Positions 5,162-21,960 of a stretch of DNA of 39,573 bases are shown one piece after another; position 1 is the first letter of the stretch, and every line of letters starts with the position of its first letter. The stretch lies in assembly GCA_027004715.1 (NCBI GenBank), contig JALTHG010000009.1:1-39573 (forward strand), written 5' to 3'. A model generated the notes under the pieces. The model was not told where the DNA came from. It was given only the letters and a program-made list of their open reading frames with translations, and searched no databases. The stretch comes from Deltaproteobacteria bacterium (GTDB taxonomy: Bacteria; Desulfobacterota; Dissulfuribacteria; Dissulfuribacterales; UBA3076). Made by a program: the position numbers and the translations under genes.

Positions 5162-5203
5162 GTAACCTCGGGAGATATCTTGGTCTGCGTGCTCTGTGCT
5201 GGA

Positions 5204-5255
5204 AGTAACTTCTCAATAAGTTGGGCCCCATTTTGTGACCGATTGAGAAATTACT
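5204..5255. repeat. Palindromic dispersed repeat, copy 1
   Basis: The arms AGTAACTTCTCAAT (5204-5217) and ATTGAGAAATTACT (5242-5255) are inverted complements with one mismatch, around a centre holding GGGCCC. Bases 5205-5225 (GTAACTTCTCAATAAGTTGG plus one more G) recur exactly at 21926-21946. A 21-bp exact match between two intergenic sites in 40 kb is not expected by chance. No ORF lies inside. It could be a REP- or MITE-like element, or a hairpin in the RNA between the rplQ terminator and ilvB. Confidence 0.75.
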
Positions 5256-5287
5256 GCTGGAATTTTTATATGACCCTTTTTATTTCA

Positions 5288-5316
5288 TTGACAATAGAAA
5301 AATAGAGGAATAGGTT
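5288..5316 (+). promoter_or_regulatory. Candidate sigma-70 promoter for the ilv-leu operon
   Basis: A perfect TTGACA (5288-5293) is followed after 17 bases by TAGGTT (5311-5316), a weak -10. A TATTAT at 5318 is a better -10 by sequence but the spacing would be 24. The site lies between the rplQ terminator and ilvB, where a promoter for the following operon is expected. No leader peptide rich in Leu/Val/Ile codons or T-box was recognised. Confidence 0.4.
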
Positions 5317-5372
5317 TTATTATTGATCTACCTGTGGATTTCAGAATCTCATGAAGATTAGGGGTGAAGTAT

Positions 5373-21924: not shown

Positions 21925-21960
21925 GGTAACTTCTCAATAAGTTGGGGCTGAAAAGTTAAG
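21925..21960. repeat. Palindromic dispersed repeat, copy 2
   Basis: Bases 21926-21946 repeat 5205-5225 exactly (21 of 21). The arm GGTAACTTCTCA is answered by TGAAAAGTTAAG at 21949-21960, which pairs with three mismatches, so this copy is a shorter palindrome of 36 bp. It lies between the divergent yciO and fhs genes, just upstream of the yciO start. No T-run follows. Confidence 0.7.

Follow-up and report, generated by a model that had tools for sequence, protein, structure and literature searches.

The closest described systems to the repeat analyzed here are the IS66 family of insertion sequences, bacterial MITEs and REP/REPIN elements. Independent IS66 insertions in Frankia are flanked by 8-bp repeats and have ends that start with GTAAGCG (PMC11946415), and the ends of Pseudomonas IS66 elements include GTAACCG and GTAACCGTCCGGGCA (PMC12888890). 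MITEPsy1 of Pseudomonas syringae, a bacterial MITE of 100 nt that is thought to be derived from ISPsy2, duplicates CTAG or YTAA (PMC3189936).

The 21-bp word GTAACTTCTCAATAAGTTGGG occurs in two intergenic gaps of the window (the whole stretch of 39,573 nt that was analyzed), and the elements to which it belongs resemble each of these systems in part. As in the IS66 family, the consensus end GTAACTTCTCAATAAG begins with 5'-GTAA, the target duplication measures 8 bp and relatives carry a PF03050 transposase between matching ends; in contrast to that family, the window elements contain no gene and the ends read GTAACTTCTCAATAAG instead of the textbook GTAAGCG. Like bacterial MITEs such as MITEPsy1, they are shorter than 300 bp, share terminal inverted repeats with an insertion sequence, are accompanied by a target duplication and lack coding capacity. 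They differ from MITEPsy1 in the 8-bp duplication, in having IS66 as the likely parent and in the size of the copies, the shortest of which measures 50 bp, or perhaps 20 bp. REP/REPIN elements are likewise short intergenic palindromes in many copies, but here target duplications are present and a RAYT gene was not found in the host genome (G000).

Because shared ends, duplication length, empty sites and transposase-bearing relatives come together, an IS66-driven MITE family is the best reading. Accordingly, the 21-bp word is very probably the terminal inverted repeat of an intergenic MITE family, most likely moved by an IS66-type transposase. No description of an IS66-derived MITE was found in the open literature searched, the coverage of which was incomplete. 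An unexplained repeat would thereby become a mobile element with defined ends, a target rule and a likely mobilizer.

Two copies of the word in the window

The word lies at 5205-5225, in the gap between rplQ and ilvB, and at 21926-21946, in the gap between yciO (L-threonylcarbamoyladenylate synthase type) and fhs. Both the exact repeat and the gene names had been given in the initial annotation and are borne out: the two copies are identical, against ~0.0002 exact 21-mer pairs expected from base composition, and there is no further match with up to three mismatches elsewhere in the window (0 expected from shuffles). The following features were delineated.

5197..5204, no strand: left 8-bp target-site duplication TGCTGGAA, identical to 5255-5262; the family-wide excess of duplications is significant
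5205..5254, plus strand: complete 50-bp MITE copy (copy 1), internally shortened, with left end GTAACTTCTCAATAAGTTGG, subterminal CCCCATTTTGTGACCGAT and right end ATTGAGAAATTAC
5255..5262, no strand: right 8-bp target-site duplication TGCTGGAA, identical to 5197-5204
21926..21946, plus strand: single MITE left end (copy 2), with no recognizable right end or target-site duplication; the sister species G001 has it at the corresponding position
21949..21958, minus strand: possible degenerate right end of copy 2, TGAAAAGTTA, assigned tentatively; a weak 10-nt arm, 90% complementary, for which no target duplication was found

The word in copy 1 had been described as the left arm of a 52-bp near-perfect palindrome. 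The palindrome is real but imperfect: positions 5204-5217 pair with 5242-5255 (14 nt, 93%, spacer of 24 nt), yet good pairing is confined to these outer arms, and self-complementarity extends to 28 of 50 positions overall. A direct 8-bp repeat, TGCTGGAA, immediately abuts 5205-5254 on both sides and had been overlooked. Copy 1 is a complete 50-bp MITE with a perfect 8-bp target-site duplication, and its interior corresponds to the subterminal GGCTCCCATTTTGGTAACCGATTACAG seen in longer family copies. It illustrates to how little sequence a copy with intact target duplications can be reduced.

A conserved protein- or RNA-binding site (a regulator operator, attenuator or terminator) happening to occupy two gaps would also be intergenic and could form the hairpin of copy 1, which together with the flanking repeats folds at −18.1 kcal/mol as RNA (z = −2.7, a modest value). 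This explanation is extremely unlikely, as the flanks bear insertion scars, no Rfam family reaches threshold and a terminator scan calls no terminator-like site at copy 1; with both scans negative, an RNA-motif reading was dropped. Moreover, the element is absent upstream of ilvB in 9/9 relatives where the ilvB gene was found. Palindrome and word are both missing there, so that the word is not a conserved binding site; its conservation without the palindrome was what the initial annotation had set against a dispersed element. The ilvB gaps of these relatives are too divergent, or in G001 too shortened, for an empty site to be located to the base. No role of GTAACTTCTCAATAAGTTGGG as a regulator of ilvB or fhs is demonstrated.

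A promoter-like TTGACAA...AATAAG is located upstream of ilvB (window 5287-5323) and is conserved in most family members examined; judged by its form, it is likely a promoter. It is still present beside the copy 1 insertion. Within the proposed MITE family, an internally shortened 50-bp copy would have landed between the end of rplQ and the ilvB promoter region.

Copy number and distribution

The genome from which the window comes (G000, 1.44 Mb; a draft of 100 contigs, 92.8% complete) contains 51 ends with at most three mismatches and none of a reversed control pattern. The possibility raised in the initial annotation that only two copies exist in the genome is thereby set aside. For the sister species of the same genus (G001; a draft of ~410 contigs, 89% complete) 276 ends within one mismatch were counted, for G006 of the same family 167, and the remaining members of genus g3 mostly have from 1 to 47 each. 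Within the order, family copies reappear in G032 and G039. The exact 16-mer is present in 13 of 395 genomes of an even sample of the phylum, representing 12 genera and several of them with 5 to 48 copies; the distribution in the phylum is patchy, and mostly multi-copy where the family is found. This 16-bp signature may serve as an annotation aid for such repeats in a phylum with many draft genomes. A search of viral contigs with an exact 17-mer gave two isolated single matches in unrelated sequences, which were judged to be due to chance.

The comparison of intergenic with coding sequence that had been proposed was carried out and indicates that the ends avoid genes: 4 of 62 fall inside open reading frames of at least 150 aa, compared with 711 of 869 (82%) random control positions at the same loci.

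Structure of the elements and insertion scars

Many family copies are inverted pairs of ends. G000 has 20 such paired elements of 20-242 bp; they are non-coding, carry terminal inverted repeats and stay below the 300-400 bp typical of MITEs. The commonest form, of 143-171 bp, has the structure GTAACTTCTCAATAAGTTGG-GGCTCCCATTTTGGTAACCGATTACAGGCTGCTTC...-hairpin CCCTCACCC...GGGTGAGGG-...CACTGTATTGCCAGAACTTATTGAGAAGTTAC, and parts of the middle are missing from shorter forms of 125, 105, 59 and 50 bp, the last being copy 1. A 20-bp insertion, GTAACTTATTGAGAAGTTAA, at G000:C53:7241-7260 (L065:642-661) is flanked by a 7/8 duplication (GAGATACT/GAGATATT). Judging from these flanks, it may represent the family's shortest member, consisting of little beyond one end.

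Target-site duplications are of constant length, 8 bp, and were scored when at least 6 of 8 positions matched. They flank 13 of the 20 paired elements of G000 (5 perfect), against a mean of 0.8 expected with permuted right flanks. The corresponding figures are 14 of 18 elements in G001 (12 perfect; 1.5 with permuted flanks) and 8 of 11 in other relatives (6 perfect; 0.9 with permuted flanks). In each of the three sets, 0 of 10,000 permutations reach the observed count. The same ends likewise come with perfect 8-bp duplications in G168, G360, G324, G325 and G245, which represent another five genera of the phylum. An apparent element of 319 bp in G194:C32 was rejected as an assembly artefact, its flanks being mutually inverted copies at a contig end.

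These duplications bear on the possibility that the copies are REP/REPIN elements mobilized by a RAYT, a Y1 tyrosine transposase. The family copies are indeed short, palindromic, intergenic, numerous and often arranged as inverted pairs. Duplications of 8 bp fit DDE-type insertion and not the single-strand movement of REPs, which, to our knowledge, are not expected to create target-site duplications; here, perfect 8-bp duplications are observed. In addition, a profile search of G000 for the Y1 domain (PF01797) found no RAYT/TnpA-Y1 gene, and in full-length elements with these ends the transposases are of the IS66 family. The REP/REPIN explanation is therefore given hardly any credence. Of the two kinds of small dispersed element initially considered, REP and MITE, the second has strong support, from copy number, the pairing of inverted ends, 8-bp duplications, an empty/filled site and the existence of transposase-bearing elements with these ends, and the first is not supported.

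The yciO-fhs gap

The partner arm of copy 2, initially described as closer and weaker than that of copy 1, corresponds to the weak arm at 21949-21958. Another end-like word, near 21956, runs in the same direction with 4 mismatches and was not accepted as part of copy 2. A short form of ~34 bp was also considered, without any duplication in support.

Between yciO and fhs, G001 has a counterpart of copy 2 at the matching position and with identical orientation; no counterpart was found at yciO-fhs in genus g3. Based on this distribution, copy 2 probably goes back to an earlier insertion within the genus and has decayed since, its left part being what would remain between yciO and fhs.

The same gap in G001 contains an extra 202-bp copy directly before fhs, with flanks AAAAAATT/AAAAAATC that form a 7/8 duplication. 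At the corresponding position, the window reads an uninterrupted CCAAAAATTCACAAGGAGG, that is, the empty site. The 202-bp copy of G001 and CCAAAAATTCACAAGGAGG of the window are a filled/empty site pair. The family thus combines dispersal in multiple copies with empty sites in relatives, as MITEs do.

Candidate mobilizer

A profile search for IS66 transposases (PF03050) gave no hit in G000 (draft, 92.8% complete, 100 contigs), and none was found in G001 (draft, 89% complete, ~410 contigs). Draft genomes easily lose repeated elements, and a transposase in G000 itself would be needed for present activity, not for descent.

A transposase with the same ends, which the initial annotation had suggested looking for, was encountered in other genomes. 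In G005, of the same family, contig C59 has an exact end and after it an IS66 transposase gene represented by its N-terminal half; contig C34 carries a C-terminal half of an IS66 transposase, a DruA gene and an exact end in inverted orientation. The G005 transposase was used as the query for a search of named genomes. Family ends enclose 2,771 bp with a transposase and DruA in a Bacillota MAG (L115) and 1,730 bp with an IS66 transposase in a Desulfobacteraceae MAG (L118). Elements with an IS66 transposase and family ends are also present in a further Desulfobacteraceae MAG (L119), a Nitrospiraceae MAG (L121) and a member of the same bacterial family as G000 (L105, PF03050), and an element of the same phylum, L176, has an IS66 transposase with 16/16 ends. 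Two further loci of this phylum show perfect duplications: L174, 1,916 bp long, with nearly the same ends (GTAACTTCTCAAAAAG), an intact transposase frame of 564 aa and the 8-bp duplication TCAAAAGA, and L177, with IS66 and DruA genes, a more distant end and the duplication GTCTTTGT. The full-length elements L115, L119, L121 and L176 were checked for target duplications and none was found. The best-matching ends (L115, L118, L121 and L176) come with no readable duplication, and the perfect duplications of L174 and L177 with slightly different ends. Ends shared with an autonomous transposon are found in L105, L115, L118, L121, L174 and L176. MITEs and parent elements have ~25 bp in common, at the ends, and their interiors are unrelated.

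The tested transposases are recognized by PF03050 and, with scores short of its cut-off, by the NCBI IS66 model; for this reason the parent transposases, some of them accompanied by DruA, seem to form a divergent branch within the IS66 family.

IS families other than IS66 also give 8-bp repeats, and no IS66 transposase was found in the host genome itself. A MITE moved by such a family, with IS66 sharing the ends for another reason, is nevertheless very unlikely, since the end word was seen at both termini, or at the single terminus that could be read, of six or more IS66 elements (from Bacillota, Nitrospiraceae, Desulfobacteraceae and the phylum of the window), the loci examined being those with IS66 matches.

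Returning to IS66 as the mobilizer, and given the negative searches for its transposase in G000 and G001, we infer from the other species that such a transposase moved the G000 copies and that no active one remains in that genome. The transposase would recognize ends beginning with 5'-GTAACTTCTCAATAAG and could move any DNA between two inverted GTAACTTCTCAATAAG ends. Reinsertion elsewhere would generate the 8-bp target duplication, and the copies that survive would be mostly those between genes.

The IS66 transposase genes are repeatedly followed by a gene for DruA (PF14236, Druantia defence protein), located at L115:4634-5509, L177:3105-4031, L109:425-1300 and L110:810-1727. In L115 and L177, DruA lies within the same terminal repeats as the transposase. 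No paper combining DruA and IS66 was found in the open literature. A contig of an ANME-2 MAG (L122, PQXF01000122.1) encodes part of an IS66 transposase that shares 91% identity with the one of G005, and a DruA-like gene lies further along. Either the sequence was transferred horizontally to the archaeon, or the contig belongs to a bacterial partner and was misbinned.

Element interiors and probable recent activity

The 202-204-bp copies of G001 with the same loop orientation have a mean identity of 96%, and most have perfect duplications, which together suggest recent movement; the family has probably been active recently in that species. Copies in G000 have a mean identity of 87% as aligned, an approximate value given that one copy was left unturned in the alignment, and the family is probably older in G000 than in G001. 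The near-identical copies of G001 offer a natural system for the origin of MITEs with palindromic interiors.

Between the same ends, different lineages hold different palindromes. The interior hairpins are CCCTCACCC...GGGTGAGGG in G000, GGCCAGCGGTAGC... in the sister species, and GTCATTCCGGCGAAAGCCGGAATC and CATTGCGAGGAGC...GCAATGACA in relatives. MITE interiors of relatives (L096:1501-1647, L085, L088 and L199) contain another palindrome, of the CATTGCGAGGAGC...GCAATGACA or ATTCCGGCGAAAGCCGGAAT type.

The hairpin CCCTCACCC...GGGTGAGGG, found inside most of the longer G000 MITEs, also stands without IS66 ends at G000:C65:54740-54784 (L182) and several other places, and therefore is a separate repeat sitting inside the MITE. 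Some interior hairpins, those of L096, L085, L088 and L199 among them, look like palindromic repeats that are widespread in many bacteria. That IS66-type ends of 16-20 bp are a general vehicle for palindromes, enclosing unrelated hairpins across lineages, seems rather unlikely. If such ends repeatedly captured and spread hairpins, this would account for some of the dispersal of common palindromic repeats in bacteria that is so far unexplained.

Two further observations concern the G001 elements. Of 13 MITEs of 202-204 bp, two (L133 and L145, compared with L128 and L130-L132) have the loop of the internal hairpin turned around with respect to the ends, and both ends are of the same subtype in L136 and L137. 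Together, loop inversions and same-subtype ends suggest exchange between elements.
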